IMG/VR virus record: IMGVR_UViG_3300037054_000017
Location: 1-20,270 of that record
Source of the DNA: a virus
Strand: one strand, 5' to 3'
Length of the DNA: 20,270 bases
Both the position numbers and the translations under genes were made by a program. Positions 1,934 to 20,270 of the stretch are shown in pieces. A model generated the notes under the pieces. That model had not been told where the DNA came from. It ran no database searches and saw only the letters and a list, made by a program, of their open reading frames with translations. The number at the start of each line of letters is the position of its first letter. The first letter of the stretch is position 1.

Positions 1934-3460
1934 ATGCCTGGCATCAGCACCGGGATTCCCGAGAATTGGAATCTGCCGCTTTTTTTCGCAACCGTTGACG
2001 GGAGCGAAGCTGGAAATCTGACCGAAGCGGAGCCCGCGCTTCTTGTCGGTCAGATGTTCACGACGGGCGGCAATGCCGGCTCGGCAACGCCCAACGTCGC
2101 CGTCCCATGCGGCTCCGTCGCGCTCGCCGGCGTCATGTTCGGCGTCGGCTCGATGCTCTATCAGATGGTCGTCGCATGGTTTAATTCGAACACCACGCAA
2201 CAGCTCTGGTGTCTGCCGGTCGCCGATGGCACGGGCACCGCGGCCACTGGCCTCATCAAATTCACCAGCGCACCGACGGCTTCGGGCCTGCTATCGGTCT
2301 ATATCGCCGGCCAGCTCGTTCAGGTCGCGGTCGCATCGACCGATACAGCGACCACCATGGCGACCAATCTTGCTGCAGCCATCAACGCCATCACCTCACT
2401 GCCGGTGACGGCAACGACCGCCGGCACCACCGGCGAGAACGTCGATCTGACCTGTCAATGGAAGGGTCTGACCGGCAACGATATCCAGATCGTCTGGAAT
2501 TATCTTGGCCTCAATGGCGGCCAGGCGTTCCCGGCTGGCGTCGCGGTCTCGGTTGTGCCGATGGCTGGCGGCACGGGTGAGCCTAATTTCACCAACGCGA
2601 TCTCCGCCATCCAGACGCAGAGATTCTGGTACGTCGGCTTCCCCTATTCCGACACCGGAACGGCGGCGGCATGGGCTACGGAATTTGGCTTTGCATCCAG
2701 CGGACGCTGGAATTACACGCGCCAGCAATACGGCTTCTGCATCAATGCCTATCGCAACGATTACGCGGACGCATTGACGTGGGGCCTTGCGCAGAATGCG
2801 CCGGTCATCTCGACGATGGTGATCGAATTGCAGGTGCCATCGCCAGTGTGGGAGGTCGCAGCGTCCTACTGTGCTTGCGCCGCGCTCGGCTTCACCGACG
2901 ATCCGGCGCGTCCGTTGCAGACCTTGGAGATGCTGGGGATTTTGCCGGCGCCGCCGCAAAATCGATTTATTCCGGCGCAGAGAAACGCGCTGACCAACAG
3001 CGGTCTCGCCGTTCAAAACGTCAATCCCTCCGGCAATATGGCGATCGCGCGGGAGACGACTGAATATCAATACAATGCGTATGGACAGAGCGATACCGCG
3101 TTCGGATTGCTCACCGTCCTGTCTACGCTCGGTTATCTGCTGACCGAAATGCGATCCGCGATCACCTCGAAATATCCGCGCGTCAAGCTGGTGCCGGATG
3201 GGACGAAATTGAGTCCCGGGCAAGCGGCGGTCACGCCGACCATCATCAAGGGCGAACTCGTCTCGTTGTTCAAGCAGGACGAATTCAACGGGCTGGTTGC
3301 CGATCTGGCCGACTTCATCGCCAATCTGATCGTGCAGATCGATCCGACCAACCCGAACAAGCTGCAAGTCCTGTGGCCGCCACAACTCGCCGGTCAACTG
3401 AGACAGTTCGACGTGCTGGCGCAATTCCGTCTGATGTATCCGACGCAGACAGCGGCCTGA
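1934..3460 (+). CDS. Contractile tail sheath protein (Mu gpL-like)
   Basis: A 508-residue protein with ATG at 1934 behind GGAGAA. Length is close to that of Mu gpL (about 500). It opens with GISTGIPENWNLPLFFATVD, the gpL-type N-terminus, has a variable outward-facing beta-rich region around residues 90-190 (many Thr/Ala/Gly), and ends with VLWPPQLAGQLRQFDVLAQFRL, matching the C-terminal part of sheath proteins that links neighbouring subunits and contacts the tube. Subunits stack around the tube and contract to drive it through the host envelope. The tube gene follows after a 64-base gap, the usual order. This gene sets the morphotype: contractile (myovirus-like) tail. Confidence 0.9.
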   Translation: MPGISTGIPENWNLPLFFATVDGSEAGNLTEAEPALLVGQMFTTGGNAGSATPNVAVPCGSVALAGVMFGVGSMLYQMVVAWFNSNTTQQLWCLPVADGTGTAATGLIKFTSAPTASGLLSVYIAGQLVQVAVASTDTATTMATNLAAAINAITSLPVTATTAGTTGENVDLTCQWKGLTGNDIQIVWNYLGLNGGQAFPAGVAVSVVPMAGGTGEPNFTNAISAIQTQRFWYVGFPYSDTGTAAAWATEFGFASSGRWNYTRQQYGFCINAYRNDYADALTWGLAQNAPVISTMVIELQVPSPVWEVAASYCACAALGFTDDPARPLQTLEMLGILPAPPQNRFIPAQRNALTNSGLAVQNVNPSGNMAIARETTEYQYNAYGQSDTAFGLLTVLSTLGYLLTEMRSAITSKYPRVKLVPDGTKLSPGQAAVTPTIIKGELVSLFKQDEFNGLVADLADFIANLIVQIDPTNPNKLQVLWPPQLAGQLRQFDVLAQFRLMYPTQTAA

Positions 3461-3524: not shown

Positions 3525-3896
3525 ATGGCGACCCCCAATAGGCTTGGTGGCGTGCTCAGTTTTACGATTGACGGCGTGTTGTACGAAGCGCGCGGCAATT
3601 TTCAGGTGACGCCGTCGACCGTGAAACGCACGGGTGTCCCCGGGCTGGACGGCGTACACGGCTACATCGAGGAAAATATTGTGCCCTCGATCAAGGGCGA
3701 TATCAGCATCGGCAATGAATTGTCGCTGACCGATCTGGAAGCGATCACTGATTCAACCGCACAGGTCACGCTCGCCAATAACGTGACCTATGTGCTGACC
3801 AAGGCCTGGACGACATCGGCCTTCGTGATCGACGCGCATGACGGCAAGATCGAACTCACGCTCGAAGGCTTTAGCTGCACCGAAATGCCGGGCTGA
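3525..3896 (+). CDS. Tail tube protein (Mu gpM-like)
   Basis: A 123-residue protein preceded by GGAGAA (3515-3520). It shows the signature of the Mu-type tube family: RLGGVLSFTIDGVLYEARGNFQVTP, then VKRTGVPGLDGVHGY, then alternating strands to the C-terminus with ELTLEGFSCTEMPG. Tube hexamers stack to form the rigid channel inside the sheath. Length matches Mu gpM (about 118 residues). Position between sheath and assembly chaperone is standard. Confidence 0.9.
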   Translation: MATPNRLGGVLSFTIDGVLYEARGNFQVTPSTVKRTGVPGLDGVHGYIEENIVPSIKGDISIGNELSLTDLEAITDSTAQVTLANNVTYVLTKAWTTSAFVIDAHDGKIELTLEGFSCTEMPG

Positions 3897-3938
3897 TCGA
3901 ACAGTCCGTCTAAAGCGTAATCTCTGGAGAATGATTCA

Positions 3939-4604
3939 ATGGTCGATGATGTAGCGTCGAACGAAAAGACGGGGTCTGCCGAAATCCCGGCCGCCGCGAC
4001 TCCGGCGGCGGTCGAGATCAAGCCGACCTTCAAATTGTCAAAGCCCATTATGGCGATGGGCAAGGAAGTATCCGAATTGACGTTCCGGCCGCCGACCGGA
4101 AACGATCTGATCAATGCTGGCAATCCTGTTGTGTTTTATCCTTACGAGGACCCGCCGAAGATTGAGCATCGGATGCCCAAAGTGGTGACGATGTCGGCGC
4201 GATTGTCGAACGTTCCATCCAAGTCGCTGGAAAAGGTAGATCTCGACGATCTCGTGCAACTGGCGTGGGTCATCACCAATTGGTTCATTCCGACTGCCTT
4301 GGCGCTCAACGAGGCGGACGAATACGAATTTGCCGTGCCGGTGAATGCCGGCAATGCCGTGATCGAGAAATTGAAATTCCGCAAGCCAATTGCCGCCGAC
4401 ATCATCAGGGTCGGCAATCCGGTCGAGATGTATCCGTTCGTCGATCCGATCCGTGTTGAATTTGACATGGGCAAGACGGCTGCGATGGCGGCGCTGTTGT
4501 CCGAGACGCCCGCTGCGGTCTTTGAGACAATCGAAGCAAGGGAATTGATCGGCATCGCTTGGGCGCTCTCCCCTTTTTTCATGCCGATGATGTCAACGGG
4601 CTAA
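3939..4604 (+). CDS. Tail assembly chaperone with duplicated domain (Mu gp41-like, short product)
   Basis: A 221-residue protein with GGAGAA before its ATG. Residues 1-28 are a flexible acidic/Ala-Pro leader. Residues 47-118 and 145-216 align without a gap over 72 positions, with about 28 identities by hand count (shared L.FR.P...D.I..GNPV..YP..DP...E..M.K...M.A.LS..P and AW....F.P). So it is two copies of the Mu gp41-type chaperone domain in one chain; this family normally has one. These proteins bind the tape measure protein and help the tube polymerise on it. Lying between tube and tape measure genes agrees. The gene also holds a -1 frameshift signal near its 3' end that yields a longer form. 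Confidence 0.8.
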   Translation: MVDDVASNEKTGSAEIPAAATPAAVEIKPTFKLSKPIMAMGKEVSELTFRPPTGNDLINAGNPVVFYPYEDPPKIEHRMPKVVTMSARLSNVPSKSLEKVDLDDLVQLAWVITNWFIPTALALNEADEYEFAVPVNAGNAVIEKLKFRKPIAADIIRVGNPVEMYPFVDPIRVEFDMGKTAAMAALLSETPAAVFETIEARELIGIAWALSPFFMPMMSTG

Positions 4605-4748: not shown

Positions 4749-7085
4749 GTGGCCGACGATACAATGAAACTGGTTGCGGAGGTCGTCGACAAATATTCTG
4801 GCCCCTTGCGCGAGATGAACAAGGCGTTTCGCGCGTTGCAGTCCAACATCAAGGGCACGCACGCGACCGGAACGGCGCAGGCCAAGGAACAAGCCAAGGC
4901 CAACAAGGAACTGCACGACGCCGTCGAGAAAGTGCGCGGGGCAACCACCGCCTTCACGCCGGCGCTTGCCGCGGTCGGCATCACGGCGTTGTCCGTGGGC
5001 GGGGCGATCACGGGACTTGTCACGACCTTAAAGAGCTTGGGCGACTCCTCGCAATCGCTCACATTCCTTTCGCGCCGCACGAAACTCACAACCGACGAGC
5101 TGCGCACCTTTGAAGAGATGGGCGAGCGCGTCGGCGTTTCGTCGGATACCATGGCATCTGGGCTGGCGAATTTCGGCCAGTTCATGGACGAAAATACAAG
5201 GCGCGTTCCGGCCGCGGTCGAGAAATGGAAGGCACTGCGCGGCTCGTTCGAAGGGCTCGGTGCCAGCCTGCGCGGGCTTTCGCGCACCGATCAGATCCAC
5301 AGGGTTTTCGACTTTTTACCGAAAATTCACGACATGGATCAGCGGCGCAAGCTGCTGGCCCTGCTCGGATTGCCGGAGGACCTGGCCAATGCGTCACGCG
5401 AGGAACTAGCCAAGGCCGAACGTGCGGCCGAGGCCTTCGTCAAAGCTCATCCACTCGATATCGGGAAAGGGCTCAAAGCCAAGGAAGCCTTTCTTGATCT
5501 GCACGAGGCGATTGAAGGCCTCAAGACCGATCTCAGCGTTGAATTTGCACCCGGTCTGACCAAGACGATCAAAGGGCTGAGCGAAGCCGTTGAACTCGCC
5601 GGCAAGGGGATTCTCAAACTCGAAGAGATCATTCACCATCTCAAGGAAGGTAATCTCAAGATCGATTTGACACCGGAAAAAGGTAGCCTGCTCGATGACG
5701 CCGGCAAATATTTGCACGATCCCGATCGCGGCAAGAAGCTGATCGACAGGCTCTTTGGCCGCGATCAGGACAAGAAGGCAACGACCAGCGACTTTCCGGC
5801 CGGCGGTAAATCGCAGCCGATTACGATGGATGGCATTCAAAAGCTCTTTGGCCGCGATCAGGACAAGAAGGCGACCGAGGAAGGAACCAAGAAAGGAACC
5901 TTCGACGGTTTGATGCAGTTTTTCCAATTGCAGAATTATCAGCCCGGCGGCGGCGATGGCGGTCTGCCGGTCGTCAAAGCCTCATACAATCCAGGAGGCG
6001 GCGATGCCATACGCGGTTCAGCTGCGCATATCCGCGGCGCACTTGGCGATGGCCCGATGGGCGACCTCGCCGGCGGGTCGCGCGGCAATCGAAATAACAA
6101 CCGCGGCAATATGAAATTCGGTGCGTTTGCGAAGGCGCACGGTGCCACTGGCGCCGACGCGCGAGGCTTCGCGATCTTCCCCGATCAGGCGACCGGCGAT
6201 GCGGCGCACTCGGCGCTTTTGCAGTCGCCGCAATATAAGGGCCTGACGCTCGATCAGTTCGGCAACAAGTACGCGCAGGGAAGCGCGGATTGGAAGGGCA
6301 CGGTCGGTAAAGAGCTTGGCATCGGCCGCGGCGATATCGTCAACAACATGGATCCTCGCCTGTCCGGCGCTGTGCGCAAGGCCGAGGGCACGACCGGCGA
6401 TGGTGGGATGGGCCATAGCGTCGCCGAGGGTAAGCAAATCCCTGTCAGTGTGTTGTCGCGCGCAGCTGCGCTGTTTCACGGCGGCGGCAATAGCCGTGAC
6501 GTGCAAGAGTTCATGAAGAGTCAGGGTTATCCGCAATCGGGTGCGTGGTGCGGCAAGTTTGCGGCATCGGTTGTCCGAGCCGCTGGCGGTACGGTTCCGG
6601 CCGGCGCTGCAATCGCTTCAAACTGGCGCAAGTACGGCCATGAGGTTTCCCCGGCCGATGCGCTCGTCGGCGATATCGCCGTGCGTAGAGGTGCGCGCAC
6701 GGGGTCAAAAGGCAGTCATGTTGGACTTGTTGACAGCGGTGATGCGGCGTCCGGGCGATTTTCGCTGCTAGGCGGCAACCAGGGCCGAGCGGTCGCTAGA
6801 AACTCCACGAGTCGGTATCAATTCTACCATGCGAACGAGGCCGCCGCTGCACACGGCGAAGCGTTGCGCCGTCATTTCGGTCATCCGCATAGAGATTTAT
6901 TGCAGCACGCGCAGCGCGCCGGGCTGATTGGTGGTTCGCAAAAGGTTGTCGGGGATGCTTCGTTGAAAATCGATCTCAACGGCTTCCCGAAAGGCGCGCG
7001 GACCAAGATGGCTTACGGCGGCATGTTCAAGGACGTGAAATTGAACCGCGGGAGTCCGATGGCACTCGCCAGTGAGGAAGCGTGA
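4749..7085 (+). CDS. Tail tape measure protein with two cell-wall-directed domains
   Basis: A 778-residue protein; GTG start at 4749 with AAGGA at 4738-4742, overlapping the stop of the frameshifted chaperone (ATG at 4764 is the alternative). Residues 1-310 are helical, with a hydrophobic stretch at 69-97 (LAAVGITALSVGGAITGLV), as in tape measure proteins that fill the tube and set its length. Residues 330-385 hold a short duplication. Residues 445-545 begin with RGNRNNNRGNMKFG and continue HGATGADARGFAIFP, a pattern found in phage lysozyme-like/P5-type domains. Residues 565-700 look like a CHAP/TIGR02594-type amidase-endopeptidase: GAWCGKF (Cys601), GSHVGLV (His657), GGNQGR (Asn677). Such domains locally open peptidoglycan during DNA entry. 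Activity is inferred from these residues. Confidence 0.85.
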   Translation: MADDTMKLVAEVVDKYSGPLREMNKAFRALQSNIKGTHATGTAQAKEQAKANKELHDAVEKVRGATTAFTPALAAVGITALSVGGAITGLVTTLKSLGDSSQSLTFLSRRTKLTTDELRTFEEMGERVGVSSDTMASGLANFGQFMDENTRRVPAAVEKWKALRGSFEGLGASLRGLSRTDQIHRVFDFLPKIHDMDQRRKLLALLGLPEDLANASREELAKAERAAEAFVKAHPLDIGKGLKAKEAFLDLHEAIEGLKTDLSVEFAPGLTKTIKGLSEAVELAGKGILKLEEIIHHLKEGNLKIDLTPEKGSLLDDAGKYLHDPDRGKKLIDRLFGRDQDKKATTSDFPAGGKSQPITMDGIQKLFGRDQDKKATEEGTKKGTFDGLMQFFQLQNYQPGGGDGGLPVVKASYNPGGGDAIRGSAAHIRGALGDGPMGDLAGGSRGNRNNNRGNMKFGAFAKAHGATGADARGFAIFPDQATGDAAHSALLQSPQYKGLTLDQFGNKYAQGSADWKGTVGKELGIGRGDIVNNMDPRLSGAVRKAEGTTGDGGMGHSVAEGKQIPVSVLSRAAALFHGGGNSRDVQEFMKSQGYPQSGAWCGKFAASVVRAAGGTVPAGAAIASNWRKYGHEVSPADALVGDIAVRRGARTGSKGSHVGLVDSGDAASGRFSLLGGNQGRAVARNSTSRYQFYHANEAAAAHGEALRRHFGHPHRDLLQHAQRAGLIGGSQKVVGDASLKIDLNGFPKGARTKMAYGGMFKDVKLNRGSPMALASEEA
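5751..5872 (+). repeat. 29-bp in-frame direct repeat within the tape measure gene
   Basis: The same 29 bases, beginning CTCTTTGGCCGCGATCAGGA, occur at 5751-5779 and 5844-5872, 93 bases (31 codons) apart. Both encode LFGRDQDKKAT in frame. The identity at DNA level points to a recent tandem duplication. Confidence 0.9.
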
Positions 7086-7612
7086 TGGCTATTCCGCTTT
7101 GGCGTCTCAATTTGCAGCCGGCGTCCTATAACGGCATTCCGTTTTATGTGAACGTCGATTCCAAATCGTCAGGACAGCGCAACGTCGTTCACGAGTTTCC
7201 AAAGAAAAATACTCCCTACACGGAATTGATGGGCCGTCGCGCGCGCAAATTCACGATTTCCGCCTACGTGCTTTATTCACCCGAACTCAATCCAGATTAT
7301 CAGGGCAACCGAGATGCGCTGGATGCCGCGCTCGAGGCCGACGAAGACACCGGCGCGCCTGGCGTGTTGGTTCACCCTCTCATGGGCGAGGATATCGTCG
7401 TCGTCGACACCTACAATGTGATCGAGCGCGTCGAACGCGGCGGCATGGCGGAATTCGAAATCAGCTTCGTTGAAGCCGGTGTTGCGCCGTCGAGCTCGAT
7501 CGGCGCCGATACGCAGAGCGCATCGAATGCCGCGGCTCAATCCGCGATCACGAGCTTTCAGGGCTCATCCGATATCACTCAGTTGGGCCCTGGCGGCATC
7601 GGGCACGCATGA
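7085..7612 (+). CDS. gpN-like protein, N-terminal half (DNA circularization domain)
   Basis: A 175-residue protein; ATG at 7085 overlaps the tape measure stop (TGATG at 7083-7087), preferred over the GTG just before it. The sequence WRLNLQPASYNGIPFYVN ... HEFPKKNTPYTELMGRRARKFTISAYV ... RDALDAALEADEDTGAPGVLVHPLMG ... EFEISFVEAG matches the DNA_circ_N domain at the N-terminus of Mu gpN. Despite that name, Mu gpN is a tail/baseplate protein, probably the ring between tube and hub (gp27/distal tail type). The remaining part of gpN is encoded by the next gene, which starts at an ATGA overlap. The Ser/Ala/Gln-rich end (residues 145-175) looks like a linker. Confidence 0.8.
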   Translation: MAIPLWRLNLQPASYNGIPFYVNVDSKSSGQRNVVHEFPKKNTPYTELMGRRARKFTISAYVLYSPELNPDYQGNRDALDAALEADEDTGAPGVLVHPLMGEDIVVVDTYNVIERVERGGMAEFEISFVEAGVAPSSSIGADTQSASNAAAQSAITSFQGSSDITQLGPGGIGHA

Positions 7613-16529: not shown

Positions 16530-17120
16530 ATGCCTTCGTATAATCCATCAAATTGGTATTGGGTTGTTGCCGGCTCGACGACGCAGGTGTTTTCCAGCGC
16601 GTCTGGAACCTATGTCCAGATCAGCGACGCGACATATGTCGCATGGCTCGCGGCCGGGGGGCACCCGACGCGCATCGACACCGAGGCCAGTCTCATCGCC
16701 GTGCTCGCCCAACAAGCGCCGAGCGTGGTGGTGCAGACACCAGCGGGGCTCGCCACCTATGCGGCGGCGAAGCAAGCGGCGATCATGGCCGGTGGAATTT
16801 CGGTCAATGTCGGCGGCACAAACGCCGAGATGGTCGATGCGTCGACCGACACGATGAGCCTTGTTCTGTTGCAGGGCGCGGTCTCAATCGCGCAGGCCAA
16901 GCCCGGCGCGACGTTCCCTTGGGTGCAAGACAATGGTGTCGCAGTCACGCTCACGGCCGCACAAGTTCTCGTGATCTTCGCCACCGTGAGCGCCTTTCTG
17001 CAAGCAACATTCGCCGCGCTCGCCGGGGTACTCGCCGCCATATCGGCGGGCACTATCACGACAAAGGCACAAGTCGATACGCCGCCATCCGGCGTCCCGG
17101 GGTGGCCGGTCAACAGCTAA
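16530..17120 (+). CDS. Tail-fibre-associated protein with DUF4376-like C-terminus
   Basis: A 196-residue protein with AGAGAGG (16511-16517) before the ATG. The first 60 residues (NWYWVVAGSTTQVFSSASGTYV ... YVAWLAAGGHPTRI) are a compact module often found in small proteins after tail fibres. Residues 75-190 resemble DUF4376: GGISVNVGGT, a run of helix, PWVQDNGVAVTLTAAQVLVIFATVSAFLQATFAAL and AAISAGTITTKAQVDTP. Such proteins likely assist folding or attach to the fibre. No enzymatic motif is seen. Confidence 0.6.
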   Translation: MPSYNPSNWYWVVAGSTTQVFSSASGTYVQISDATYVAWLAAGGHPTRIDTEASLIAVLAQQAPSVVVQTPAGLATYAAAKQAAIMAGGISVNVGGTNAEMVDASTDTMSLVLLQGAVSIAQAKPGATFPWVQDNGVAVTLTAAQVLVIFATVSAFLQATFAALAGVLAAISAGTITTKAQVDTPPSGVPGWPVNS

Positions 17121-17196: not shown

Positions 17197-17556
17197 ATGA
17201 CGACAATTACCCATGATCCAATTGACTTTGTCTGCGGTGATACTTGGAAAATTACACTGCCCGATGTCGCCAGTGATGGCGCTCCGCTCGATCTCAACGG
17301 CGCGACGGTTGCGTGGCGGCTCGATAGCATCGACGGAAGCAAGAATTTCCTGTCACTCGAGAACGACACCAACGGCGGCATCCAGACCTTCCTCGACACC
17401 AACGGCCATGGCGACATCTTGGTCACGGTGCCGAAAGCAGAGACTTTGACACTTGCGCCCGGCAGCTATGTCGATTGGCTTCGCGTCACACTCACGGACG
17501 GCACCACTTTGACGGTATGGACCGGCGCGATCCGCGCGGCTGCGAATCCTGCCTAA
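17197..17556 (+). CDS. Small beta-rich tail protein (BppU N-terminal-like)
   Basis: A 119-residue protein with AGAGGA before its ATG at 17197. FVCGDTWKITLPDVASDGAPLDLNGATVAWRLD, GDILVTVPKAETLTLAPGSYVDWLRVTLTDGTTLTVWTGAIRA is the pattern of an Ig-like sandwich as in the N-terminal domain of the baseplate protein BppU of lactococcal phages ('GDTW....D..G.p.dltg....w.l.....G.Y'). It probably acts as an adaptor in the receptor-binding assembly. The resemblance is at pattern level only. Confidence 0.5.
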   Translation: MTTITHDPIDFVCGDTWKITLPDVASDGAPLDLNGATVAWRLDSIDGSKNFLSLENDTNGGIQTFLDTNGHGDILVTVPKAETLTLAPGSYVDWLRVTLTDGTTLTVWTGAIRAAANPA

Positions 17557-17576: not shown

Positions 17577-18212
17577 ATGACCGTTCGATCAACGGCGCTT
17601 CCGCGCGCGTTTAATCTGAGCCGTTGGGCTTATTTTCTTGATTTTGCCTTGGCTCCGTTCGCTGCGATCGGGCTGCTCTCGATTGTGCTTTGCGTGAGAC
17701 CTATCGGCCCAGCGATGGCGCTCGTCTGCCTCACGTCCGGCTTTGTTGGTTGGACATTGGCCGAATATTGGATCCATCGCGGTCTGTTTCATGCGCTGAC
17801 GGCGTTTGAGCGCATGCACACGGTTCACCATCTCAATCCCAAGGGATGGGTTGGCATTGCCAGCTGGGGAACGTTCGGAACCTTCGCAGCAATTTGGCTT
17901 GCGGCCGCCGCGCTGATCGATGTCGCCATTGCCTCAACGTTCACTGCCGGCGTGATCCTCGGCTATCTCACCTATTGCATCGTGCATGTCCGATATCATC
18001 ACGGCGATCGCACGAAATTCAACCGCTACATCGCGTTCATGTGGCGGCATCACGCGGCCCATCATCGTGGCGGCAAGGGCAATTTCGGCGTGACGAGTCC
18101 GCTCTGGGATTTCGTCTTCGGGTCGTATCGCCAAGGCCGCGAAGTAATTCCGCATCGCTCGCCGCCATCTGTCTCGCTAACCGCAGCCATCAATCCAAAC
18201 AGGAGAGGGTAA
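17577..18212 (+). CDS. Fatty acid hydroxylase/sterol desaturase family membrane protein
   Basis: A 211-residue protein; ATG at 17577 is chosen because GGGG lies just upstream, and the open frame back to 17475 crosses the previous gene. Hydrophobic segments lie near residues 18-40, 44-62, 93-118 and 119-138. Four histidine clusters are seen: HRGLFH (67-72), HTVHH (81-85), H137 with HH141-142, and HHAAHH (158-163). This is the eight-histidine di-iron site layout of the FA_hydroxylase superfamily, whose members hydroxylate or desaturate lipids, sterols or carotenoids in membranes using O2. The ending GVTSPLWDFVFGSY is also typical. Substrate is unknown. It sits between tail-fibre and lysis genes, so it is a phage accessory gene, and its TAATG overlap couples it to the next ORF. 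Confidence 0.85.
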   Translation: MTVRSTALPRAFNLSRWAYFLDFALAPFAAIGLLSIVLCVRPIGPAMALVCLTSGFVGWTLAEYWIHRGLFHALTAFERMHTVHHLNPKGWVGIASWGTFGTFAAIWLAAAALIDVAIASTFTAGVILGYLTYCIVHVRYHHGDRTKFNRYIAFMWRHHAAHHRGGKGNFGVTSPLWDFVFGSYRQGREVIPHRSPPSVSLTAAINPNRRG

Positions 18213-18442
18213 TGAAAAAGATTGTTGCTGAACTTGAGGGCCTGCTCGCTCGCCTAAAAGGCGAGGTTGAGGCAATGGGGCATGGCTCAGCCGGTGCCGC
18301 GCCAGCCGCACCCGCTGCCCCGGCAGTAGCCGCGGCAGAGCCAGCGCCAGCAGTTGCCGAAGAGCCTACCCCGGCAGTAGCCGCGGCAGAGCTAGCGCCA
18401 GCAGTTGCCGAAGAGCCTGCGCCGGCCGCGACTGTCGGTTGA
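18212..18442 (+). CDS. Small Pro/Ala-rich protein of unknown function
   Basis: A 76-residue protein with AGGAGAGGG just before the ATG, overlapping the hydroxylase stop (TAATG at 18210-18214). Residues 1-25 form a short amphipathic, coiled-coil-like helix (KIVAELEGLLARLKGEVEAM). The rest is an acidic Pro/Ala-rich low-complexity tail with two 17-residue repeats. No signal peptide, membrane segment or known domain is visible. After the stop, the +1 frame continues in the same style (DPAPAAPAGPAPTV, stop at 18483-18485), so the gene may have been shortened by a frameshift. Coupling suggests it works with, or is regulated like, the hydroxylase. Confidence 0.6.
   Translation: MKKIVAELEGLLARLKGEVEAMGHGSAGAAPAAPAAPAVAAAEPAPAVAEEPTPAVAAAELAPAVAEEPAPAATVG
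18320..18421 (+). repeat. Two tandem 51-bp units in the Pro/Ala-rich gene
   Basis: Units 18320-18370 and 18371-18421 are nearly identical, each encoding PAVAAAE(P/L)APAVAEEP plus one residue. Differences are a C/T change in the middle and the last codon. A recent in-frame tandem duplication is likely, and the copy number may vary among relatives. Confidence 0.85.
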
Positions 18443-18520: not shown

Positions 18521-19849
18521 ATGTTGACGACGGAATCTCTCCGGCGGCTATGGCCGCACGGCGATTCGAAGGTGCCGGGCCTGATCGATGGCATCGTCGC
18601 GGCCGCGCCGGCCGTGTTCGCCAAATACGGATTGACCACGCCGCTGGTCGTCGCTCACGCGATGGCGCAGTTCAGCCACGAGTGCGGCGCCGGTCTGGAA
18701 ATGGTCGAGAACCTGAACTATTCGGCCAGGGGTCTTCAGCAGACGTGGCCGACGCGCTTTAGCGCATCTAAGGCGTTGGCCTATCAGCACCAGCCGCAAA
18801 AGATCGCCGATGAAGTCTATGATGGCCGCATGGGCGACAAGCCCGATAGCGACGACGGCTGGAACTATCGCGGCCGCGGCTTGTCGCAAACGACCGGTCG
18901 CCAGGCTTACGCGAAGCTGGGCGAGATCGCCGGCCCCGATCTCCTGACCAATCCCGATCAGGTCAATGATCCGATGCACGCACTCGAATGTGCGGTCGCC
19001 GATTTCGTCGTGATCTGTCATTGCCTGCCGTTCGCCCAAAAGGACGACGTGCGCGGCGTCACGCATCACCTCAACGGCGGTTTCATCGGCGAAACGAAAC
19101 GCGAAGAGTGGCTGCGGAAATGGAAAAAGGAACTTAGCGCCGCATCTCCTGCACCGAGGTCCGAGGTATCGGCCGCGCTGCTGGCTATTCCTGACGCCCT
19201 AGCACCGACCGAGGCTCATGCCGATGAGGTTGCCGACGATACCGCGCCCGAGGATCAAGGCCTGGTGTTCGGGGACAAGGGCTGGGAAGTCGAAGCCGTC
19301 CAGACCAGGCTCACCGAGCTCGGCTATCCGGTCGGCAAGCCGGATGGCTGCTTCAACGAAGCGACCCGCGCTGCCGTGCTGGCGTTCCAGGCCAACGAGG
19401 GTTTGAGCACCACAGGCGTCATCGATCAGGCCACACGCGCGCGCATGACCGACGCGCCGCAGAAACCGGTCTCGGAAGGCCGCGCTACCTCCTCGCTCGA
19501 TGATCTGCGGGCAGACGGCTCACGCACCATCGCAGCAACCGACCAGATCGGCATGTTTGGCAAGATCAAGATGTGGGGCGGCGGCATTCTCGGTGGCGGC
19601 TGGGCCGCCCAGCAATCCGGCATGGTCAATCTCGATACGATCCAGTCCGGCGTCGACAAGGCGCACCAAGCCTACGGCATTCTCGACAGCATCAAGGAAC
19701 TCATCCCGACCGGCCTGTTGTCGCATCCTGCGACACCGTTCGTCGCCGTCGGGTTGGCCGGCCTCGGCTTCCTGGTGTGGAAGAACGCCCGCAAGGCCGC
19801 CGTCGCGCGCCTCGATGATCATCGCTCCGGCGACAATATGGGGAGGTGA
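18521..19849 (+). CDS. Endolysin: GH19-type lysozyme, peptidoglycan-binding domain and C-terminal membrane segment
   Basis: A 442-residue protein with AAAGGTAG before the ATG. Residues 1-205 are a GH19/chitinase-like muramidase: AMAQFSHECGAG with Glu54, ENLNYSARGL with Glu63 (the nine-residue spacing of the two acidic residues in phage endolysins such as SPN1S), NYRGRGLSQTTGR (115-127) and THHLNGG (181-187). A Pro/Ala/Glu linker follows. Residues 247-311 are a PG_binding_1 domain (GDKGWEVEAVQTRLTELGYPVGKPDGCFNEATRAAVLAFQ). Residues 343-362 are Gly-rich and 405-420 are hydrophobic (TPFVAVGLAGLGFLVW), then basic, a likely membrane anchor. It degrades host peptidoglycan at lysis. There is no N-terminal signal. 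Confidence 0.85.
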   Translation: MLTTESLRRLWPHGDSKVPGLIDGIVAAAPAVFAKYGLTTPLVVAHAMAQFSHECGAGLEMVENLNYSARGLQQTWPTRFSASKALAYQHQPQKIADEVYDGRMGDKPDSDDGWNYRGRGLSQTTGRQAYAKLGEIAGPDLLTNPDQVNDPMHALECAVADFVVICHCLPFAQKDDVRGVTHHLNGGFIGETKREEWLRKWKKELSAASPAPRSEVSAALLAIPDALAPTEAHADEVADDTAPEDQGLVFGDKGWEVEAVQTRLTELGYPVGKPDGCFNEATRAAVLAFQANEGLSTTGVIDQATRARMTDAPQKPVSEGRATSSLDDLRADGSRTIAATDQIGMFGKIKMWGGGILGGGWAAQQSGMVNLDTIQSGVDKAHQAYGILDSIKELIPTGLLSHPATPFVAVGLAGLGFLVWKNARKAAVARLDDHRSGDNMGR

Positions 19850-19852
19850 ACA

Positions 19853-20248
19853 ATGTTGTTGGGTCTCGTCTCTCTCATTCCTGGTGCAGGTCCGGTCGTG
19901 GCCGGCATTGGATACGTCCTCGGCATGCTGTGGCGGTGCAAGCCATGCCTGATCGCGATGGCGCTGCTCGCCGCCTTCGTGTGGGGCGACATTCGCGCCA
20001 CGCGTAAAGAGCGCGCCGCCTGCAAGGCCGCCGATCTATCGATGCAGCTCAAGGCGAAAGAGCGTGACCTCGCGATCAAAGAGGACACGGTCAAGTTTGC
20101 TCAGCAAAAGGTCGACGAGCTGACCCAGCAGACCACGGATTTGAAAAAAAAGGTGTCCGACTATGACAAGGCTCTCACAGATTCCAAGGCTGGCGCTTGC
20201 CCTATCAGCGACGATAATGCTCGCCGCTTGCGCGGGATCACCAGGTAA
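19853..20248 (+). CDS. Inner-membrane spanin (Rz-like), possibly with a holin-like N-terminus
   Basis: A 131-residue protein; GGGGAGGTG (19840-19848) precedes ATG 19853, 3 bases after the endolysin stop. There are two hydrophobic stretches, residues 2-26 and 32-45, split by RCKPC, whereas Rz has one N-terminal anchor. Residues 50-112 are a charged coiled coil (KAKERDLAIKEDTVKFAQQKVDELTQQTTDLKKK), and the end ACPISDDNARRLRGI is of the Rz type. i-spanins span the periplasm and fuse the inner to the outer membrane after the peptidoglycan is gone. The presence of an overlapping lipoprotein gene supports this. The additional hydrophobic stretch could provide a holin-like function. Confidence 0.75.
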   Translation: MLLGLVSLIPGAGPVVAGIGYVLGMLWRCKPCLIAMALLAAFVWGDIRATRKERAACKAADLSMQLKAKERDLAIKEDTVKFAQQKVDELTQQTTDLKKKVSDYDKALTDSKAGACPISDDNARRLRGITR

Positions 20249-20270
20249 CCCGAAGCTGCAGGTCCAGATC
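20163..20270 (+). CDS. Outer-membrane lipoprotein spanin (Rz1-like), cut by the window end
   Basis: An ATG at 20163, in the +1 frame relative to the spanin gene, opens a frame to the end of the window (36 codons). It encodes MTRLSQIPRLALALSATIML then AAC: a basic start, hydrophobic core and LAAC lipobox with Cys23 as the lipidated residue, followed by AGSPGNPKLQV. Starting an Rz1 gene inside the 3' part of Rz is the classical arrangement. It would interact with the i-spanin C-terminus in the periplasm. The 3' end lies outside the window. Confidence 0.8.
   Translation, partial: MTRLSQIPRLALALSATIMLAACAGSPGNPKLQVQI

Follow-up and report, generated by a model that had tools for sequence, protein, structure and literature searches.

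Several different phages carry, next to endolysin, holin-like or spanin genes, a gene for a membrane-embedded enzyme that belongs to the fatty acid hydroxylase superfamily (FA_hydroxylase). Both the enzyme class and the location are well supported. The gene described first lies in a 20,270 bp stretch of DNA, termed here the window, which is a whole IMG/VR linear record and probably a fragment of a phage genome. Whatever its role, the hydroxylase lineage represents a hitherto undescribed branch, specific to phages, within a well-studied superfamily. What we infer beyond this concerns substrate and purpose: the protein is tentatively proposed to be expressed late, to hydroxylate host envelope lipids at a di-metal site and so to aid the lysis proteins.

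The hydroxylase gene and its product

The gene extends from an ATG at position 17577 to a TAA at 18210–18212 and encodes 211 amino acids, exactly the reading frame given in a first-pass annotation of this DNA. That annotation had described a lipid-hydroxylase-family membrane enzyme inside a late operon; of this interpretation, the evidence supports the enzyme family, the membrane nature and the placement in a late operon. Comparison with the Pfam model PF04116, which it had recommended, gives a match of 69 bits (cut-off 31; E 7e-19) that spans model positions 3–132 of 132. The four histidine clusters of the superfamily are all present, as first described (Table 1), and comprise 11 conserved histidines in place of the eight counted earlier. 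Each of the 11 is invariant in 28/28 aligned homologues, and residues E63 and D178 are likewise invariant. A hydropathy scan indicates a multi-transmembrane (TM) protein.

The AlphaFold2 model used here was built from 18 sequences and has a pLDDT of 83.2. It replaced an earlier, poor model from 5 sequences, with a pLDDT of 61.8. In a Foldseek comparison of the model with the PDB, the hydroxylase domain of yeast Scs7 (4zr1) is the only significant match (TM 0.67, prob 1.00, E 1.1e-5). A sequence search against solved structures agrees, with Scs7 again nearest (2.8e-6). From the fold match to Scs7, the histidines may be regarded as a putative di-metal site.

Scs7 and FA2H proteins are four-TM di-metal monooxygenases of membranes (PMC10002949). 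The phage enzyme has superfamily, fold and the four histidine motifs in common with Scs7p/FA2H (PDB 4zr0, 4zr1), but it is only ~210 amino acids long, is without the N-terminal cytochrome b5 domain and shows 22–25% identity in fold alignments. Yeast and animal (also other fungal and protist) forms of FA2H have a cytochrome b5 domain of their own, whereas plant forms borrow one (PMC10002949). A Pfam search finds no such domain in the 211 amino acid protein, which is not assigned to FA2H. OlsE, a rhizobial enzyme that hydroxylates a membrane lipid at its ornithine moiety (PMC3972451), belongs to the same superfamily. Identification of the phage enzyme as OlsE was nonetheless rejected: it scores 15.2 bits against the NCBIfam model NF052566, far below the equivalog cut-off of 475.

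Genomic setting in the window

Nearly the entire window is a structural/late region with all genes on one strand. Tail genes encode sheath, tube, tape measure, baseplate hub and wedge proteins, and tail fibres; no tRNA or Rfam RNA was found in the window. The baseplate J-like protein has its nearest relatives among cultured phages in Mu-like and similar myophages (~28–36% identity), and the window phage is therefore taken to be an uncultured Mu-like myophage. When the baseplate protein was compared with 297 Bradyrhizobium-family genomes, a relative was found in only one of them (42%), and for this reason no host is assigned. The window phage may be tied to Bradyrhizobium-type hosts only by way of its relatives.

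The placement of the hydroxylase between tail-fibre and lysis genes was read correctly at first pass, as a DUF4376/tail-fibre-type frame lies upstream, and an endolysin and Rz/Rz1-like frames lie downstream. Twenty bp separate the stop of the 119 amino acid tail-region frame from the hydroxylase start. At the other end the hydroxylase stop (TAA, 18210–18212) and the next start (ATG, 18212–18214) overlap in a literal TAATG, as had been reported, and translational coupling from the hydroxylase to the 76 amino acid frame is likely. This small frame has no family match in Pfam or PHROG and no clear homologue. It contains a recent internal tandem duplication of 51 bp (94% match).

The endolysin matches phrog_181 (2.2e-49) and PF01471 (2.5e-15), with a weak match to PF00182 that is below cut-off, and its C-terminal TM segment is predicted by hydropathy. 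Two TM segments are seen in the Rz-like frame by hydropathy scan, and the Rz1-like lipoprotein overlaps this frame in a different one. The same endolysin–Rz order is found in a metagenomic phage, L072.

Table 1. Features of the hydroxylase gene and its neighbours (window positions).
Feature	Position	Strand	Basis
Tail-fibre-type ORF with DUF4376	16530..17120	+	PF14301 5.6e-11; phrog_10508 tail fibre 8e-10
Small late ORF, 119 aa, 5′ of hydroxylase	17197..17556	+	phrog_1084 unknown function 3.8e-6
FA_hydroxylase-superfamily membrane enzyme, 211 aa	17577..18212	+	PF04116, AlphaFold2, Foldseek
Histidine cluster 1, H67-x4-H72 (HX4H)	17775..17792	+	translation; invariant 28/28
Histidine cluster 2, H81-xx-H84H85 (HX2HH)	17817..17831	+	translation; invariant 28/28
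Histidine cluster 3, H137-xxx-H141H142 (HX3HH)	17985..18002	+	translation; invariant 28/28
Histidine cluster 4, H159-xx-H162H163 (HX2HH)	18051..18065	+	translation; invariant 28/28
TAATG shared by the hydroxylase stop and the following start	18210..18214	+	sequence
Small Ala/Pro/Glu-rich ORF, 76 aa, low-complexity	18212..18442	+	reading frame alone
Endolysin: GH19-like lysozyme + PG_binding_1 + C-terminal TM (predicted)	18521..19849	+	phrog_181, PF01471
Rz-like (inner-membrane spanin), TM + coiled-coil	19853..20248	+	phrog_312 Rz-like spanin 0.0085, weak
Rz1-like lipoprotein start, lipobox LAAC	20163..20270	+	translation MTRLSQIPRLALALSATIMLAACAGSPG...; runs off contig end

The G+C content of the hydroxylase gene is near that of its surroundings. 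A scan of the window for sigma-70-type promoters found none belonging to the gene, and the only terminator-like match is inside the hydroxylase ORF, at chance level. Classification as a classical moron was considered and not adopted: the gene is optional (see below), and the promoter and terminator of its own that mark a moron were not seen in these scans.

Relatives in other phages

Scans of viral contigs led to Bradyrhizobium-type prophages L002, L003, L004, L005 and L022, three of which are also found in named Bradyrhizobium genomes. A search of 266 Bradyrhizobium genomes added L038. The enzymes of the first five prophages show 44–51% identity, and those of all six 44–52%. A scan for the motif AEYWIHR returned 18 viral stretches, made up of five known copies, two new ones (L141 and L146) and 11 stretches without FA_hydroxylase. 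L107, a divergent member whose prophage is L136 in IMG/VR, came to light in a search for proteins akin to the L005 endolysin. No additional phage-clade member emerged when the host order was surveyed more widely. A viral scan with a long-type host enzyme returned only L156, a distant copy of 275 amino acids (positions 3671–4498) from a 62-kb viral contig, where it lies antisense to tail genes.

In L002, L003 and L004 the gene before the enzyme encodes a PG-binding/CHAP-like endolysin, and the enzyme begins five bases beyond the endolysin stop. In L005, L022 and L107 the enzyme comes immediately after a lysozyme-like protein that has a TM segment at its C terminus. Neither PHROG nor Pfam gives a match for these lysozyme-like proteins; they are considered endolysins, with less certainty, on the strength of their relationship to muramidase-like proteins of phages. 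L038 is a fragment in which the enzyme is accompanied by an apparent related lysozyme, as judged by eye. L141 is a deeper member, and here the enzyme ATG shares bases with the stop of an ORF that resembles a 3TM holin, with a holin score below the Pfam cut-off. Membrane ORFs are found 3′ of the enzyme in L002 and L022. The exception is L146, from a 60-kb viral contig: here the enzyme (2663–3190) lies away from the lysis region and has an Enc34-type SSB and a DNA polymerase as neighbours. Lysis cassettes thus hold 9/10 of the short-type phage enzymes (window, L002–L005, L022, L038, L107 and L141), a count that depends on the route of discovery, L107 having been found via its endolysin and the others via the enzyme.

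The phage enzyme clade adjoins three different endolysin types. It also spans tail types, which include Mu-like contractile tails and, in L005, a lambda-J-type tail tip. The arrangement of the two genes is not fixed: the enzyme precedes the endolysin in the window and follows it elsewhere.

Phylogeny, selection and distribution

The window enzyme and the six prophage enzymes form one clade that is separate from chromosomal homologues (support 99/98). Addition of L141 gives a clade of eight (87/98). L107 and L146 form a second phage pair (98/95), one of them in a lysis cassette and the other by replication genes. Bradyrhizobium, Kaistia and others also have short FA_hydroxylases on their chromosomes, which are similar in length and motifs and show ~30–38% identity but fall outside the phage clade. 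They are present in Bradyrhizobium, the host genus of the prophage relatives, where the ORF listing reveals no recognisable lysis-gene neighbours. Values of dN/dS are 0.175–0.191 among L002, L003 and L004, and 0.26–0.36 for wider pairs. These low values in the phage clade imply that the enzyme is kept by purifying selection.

The gene is not present in all related phages. In L097, the corresponding region of another Bradyrhizobium genome, nucleotide identity to L095 is 75% over the endolysin and 72% over the gene that follows, but the hydroxylase is cleanly missing from the junction where L095 carries it. Baseplate or endolysin similarity ties 30 phage records to the window, and no FA_hydroxylase was found in any of them, though many are short fragments. 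Among 41 endolysin-relative loci fetched from Bradyrhizobium, four have the enzyme within ~1.5 kb. On the basis of the L097 junction, the 30 records and the 41 loci, the gene is considered an optional cassette that entered lysis modules more than once. The first-pass annotation had called for a survey of related phages, and had raised absence from all of them, together with flanking recombination scars, as a sign of chance insertion. The gene is indeed absent from the 30 nearest records, but close relatives are in the lysis cassettes of other phages, and no repeat was found to bracket the window hydroxylase.

The phage enzymes appear to have gone unrecorded. A tblastn search of INPHARED (50,697 records) with four phage enzyme queries gave no matches, and 7/7 phage enzymes tested are without a PHROG family. 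In the literature, as far as it was covered, fatty acid hydroxylases and sterol desaturases are reported in giant or algal viruses only; within the same partial coverage there was no fatty acid hydroxylase in a phage lysis cassette and no paper describing one.

Possible role in lysis

Phage lysis is usually described in terms of holins, endolysins and spanins, and lipid-acting lysis helpers are, to our knowledge, known mainly from mycobacteriophages. The data suggest a chemical change to the host envelope, made by some phages close to the time of lysis. In the proposed role, the hydroxylase would be made late in infection alongside the lysis proteins and would sit in the host inner membrane, with its putative di-metal site facing the cytoplasm. 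It would use O2 and draw its electrons from a host redox carrier; as the enzyme is without a cytochrome b5 domain, the host would presumably have to supply the electrons. The hydroxylated product would be a host envelope lipid, modified most likely at an acyl chain, as with Scs7/FA2H, and by this analogy acyl lipids are probably the substrate. Altered lipids of the inner membrane, or lipids altered on their way to the outer membrane, may then cause a stiff envelope to yield to the lysis proteins. The target would be the hopanoid- and very-long-chain-fatty-acid-rich envelope of Bradyrhizobium-type hosts.

The Bradyrhizobium envelope is rich in hopanoids and has a hopanoid-linked lipid A with hydroxylated very-long-chain fatty acids (VLCFAs), including 30:0(2,29-2OH), and this lipid A is said to rigidify the outer membrane (PMC5613085). 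It is because of this rigid envelope that late lipid hydroxylation in aid of lysis is the preferred reading. The first-pass annotation had offered as possible roles a block to superinfection, a change in lipid A, hopanoid or carotenoid chemistry, and conditioning of the membrane for lysis. The recurrent position in lysis cassettes favours the last of these without proving it. The surroundings of lysis genes are a common site of late-expressed cargo, and position alone gives no function. The L146 copy by SSB and DNA polymerase genes, the antisense L156 copy in tail genes, and the absence of the gene from most relatives weigh against a role in lysis.

The hydroxylase would be an optional auxiliary to lysis, with a logic that may be compared to that of mycobacteriophage LysB. 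LysB is a lipid-acting enzyme of the lysis cassette that serves against an unusual, lipid-rich envelope (PMC6116114, PMC8309991). The analogy is one of function only and no homology is claimed: LysB is lipolytic and acts at the outer membrane, whereas the phage hydroxylase is a membrane-embedded oxidase. In a wider and more doubtful form of the proposal, O2-dependent lipid hydroxylation in some alphaproteobacterial phages is timed with endolysin and spanins, weakens hopanoid/VLCFA-rich membranes and is an extra component of lysis. If true, this would be an aid to lysis by oxidative lipid chemistry that is so far undescribed. A recurrent lysis-cassette lipid hydroxylase in hopanoid-rich hosts would represent a second lipid-based lysis aid with a different chemistry, and would offer a genetic handle on how stiff hopanoid–lipid A envelopes are breached.

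Alternative explanations

Lysis regions commonly host cargo and L146 breaks the pattern of location, and a cargo gene of the late operon with a role outside lysis is thus the main alternative, a real possibility if not the preferred one. Such an enzyme would modify surface or membrane lipids (lipid A acyl chains, ornithine lipids or hopanoids), with a change in phage adsorption, superinfection exclusion or lysogen fitness as the outcome, and would be sited where the lysis-gene stretch tolerates insertions and is strongly transcribed. The clean absence in L097 and the absence from the 30 related records fit an optional gene of this type, as do the locations of L146 and L156 and the variable order relative to the endolysin. 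The sigma-70-type scan, on the other hand, detected no promoter belonging to the gene; the enzyme overlaps lysis-region ORFs in both the window and L141; and cargo does not readily account for the recurrence in nine of ten short-type copies.

The FA_hydroxylase superfamily also includes CrtZ-type and sterol-type oxidases. This raises the question of whether the enzyme is a carotenoid or hopanoid hydroxylase that acts on pigment or polycyclic lipids, with consequences, for example, for membrane stiffness or oxidative protection. Membership in PF04116 leaves the substrate undecided, and hopanoids are present in Bradyrhizobium (PMC5613085). But the nearest solved relative by both sequence and fold is Scs7 only, a fatty-acid 2-hydroxylase, and among NCBIfam models, including those for carotenoid and hopanoid enzymes, the sub-threshold OlsE match is the only one. 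A carotenoid or hopanoid substrate is accordingly considered improbable.

Perhaps catalysis is dispensable and the multi-helix protein has been reused in the lysis system, with a role like that of a holin or an anti-holin. The protein has multiple TM segments, and no obvious separate holin lies between the window tail genes and the endolysin. However, 11 invariant histidines of metal-ligand type, together with E63 and D178, are needless for a purely structural role, a holin-like ORF coexists with the enzyme in L141, and L002 and L022 have membrane ORFs after it, which makes this reuse very improbable. Chance capture of a host gene with no phage function, for which absence from the nearest relatives of the window phage and the short chromosomal homologues in the host genus of the prophages might speak, is largely refuted by the distinct phage clade (99/98), dN/dS far below 1, the lack of flanking repeats and the absence of host genes nearby in the window, and is rejected.

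Other features of the lysis regions

Endolysin-like proteins with a C-terminal TM segment are found near hydroxylases in the window (18521–19849), L005 (5088–5951), L022 (5097–5954), L107 and L141 (1–435), which suggests membrane-tethered endolysins. In L004, an ORF that resembles an HNH-type homing endonuclease by eye (6550–7170) lies on the opposite strand between the hydroxylase and the next lysis-region gene; this insertion is absent from L002 and L003. The tail-fibre region of L004 also has an antisense ORF (1730–2866) for a probable membrane acyltransferase, OafA-like by eye, which is a candidate surface-modifying gene.
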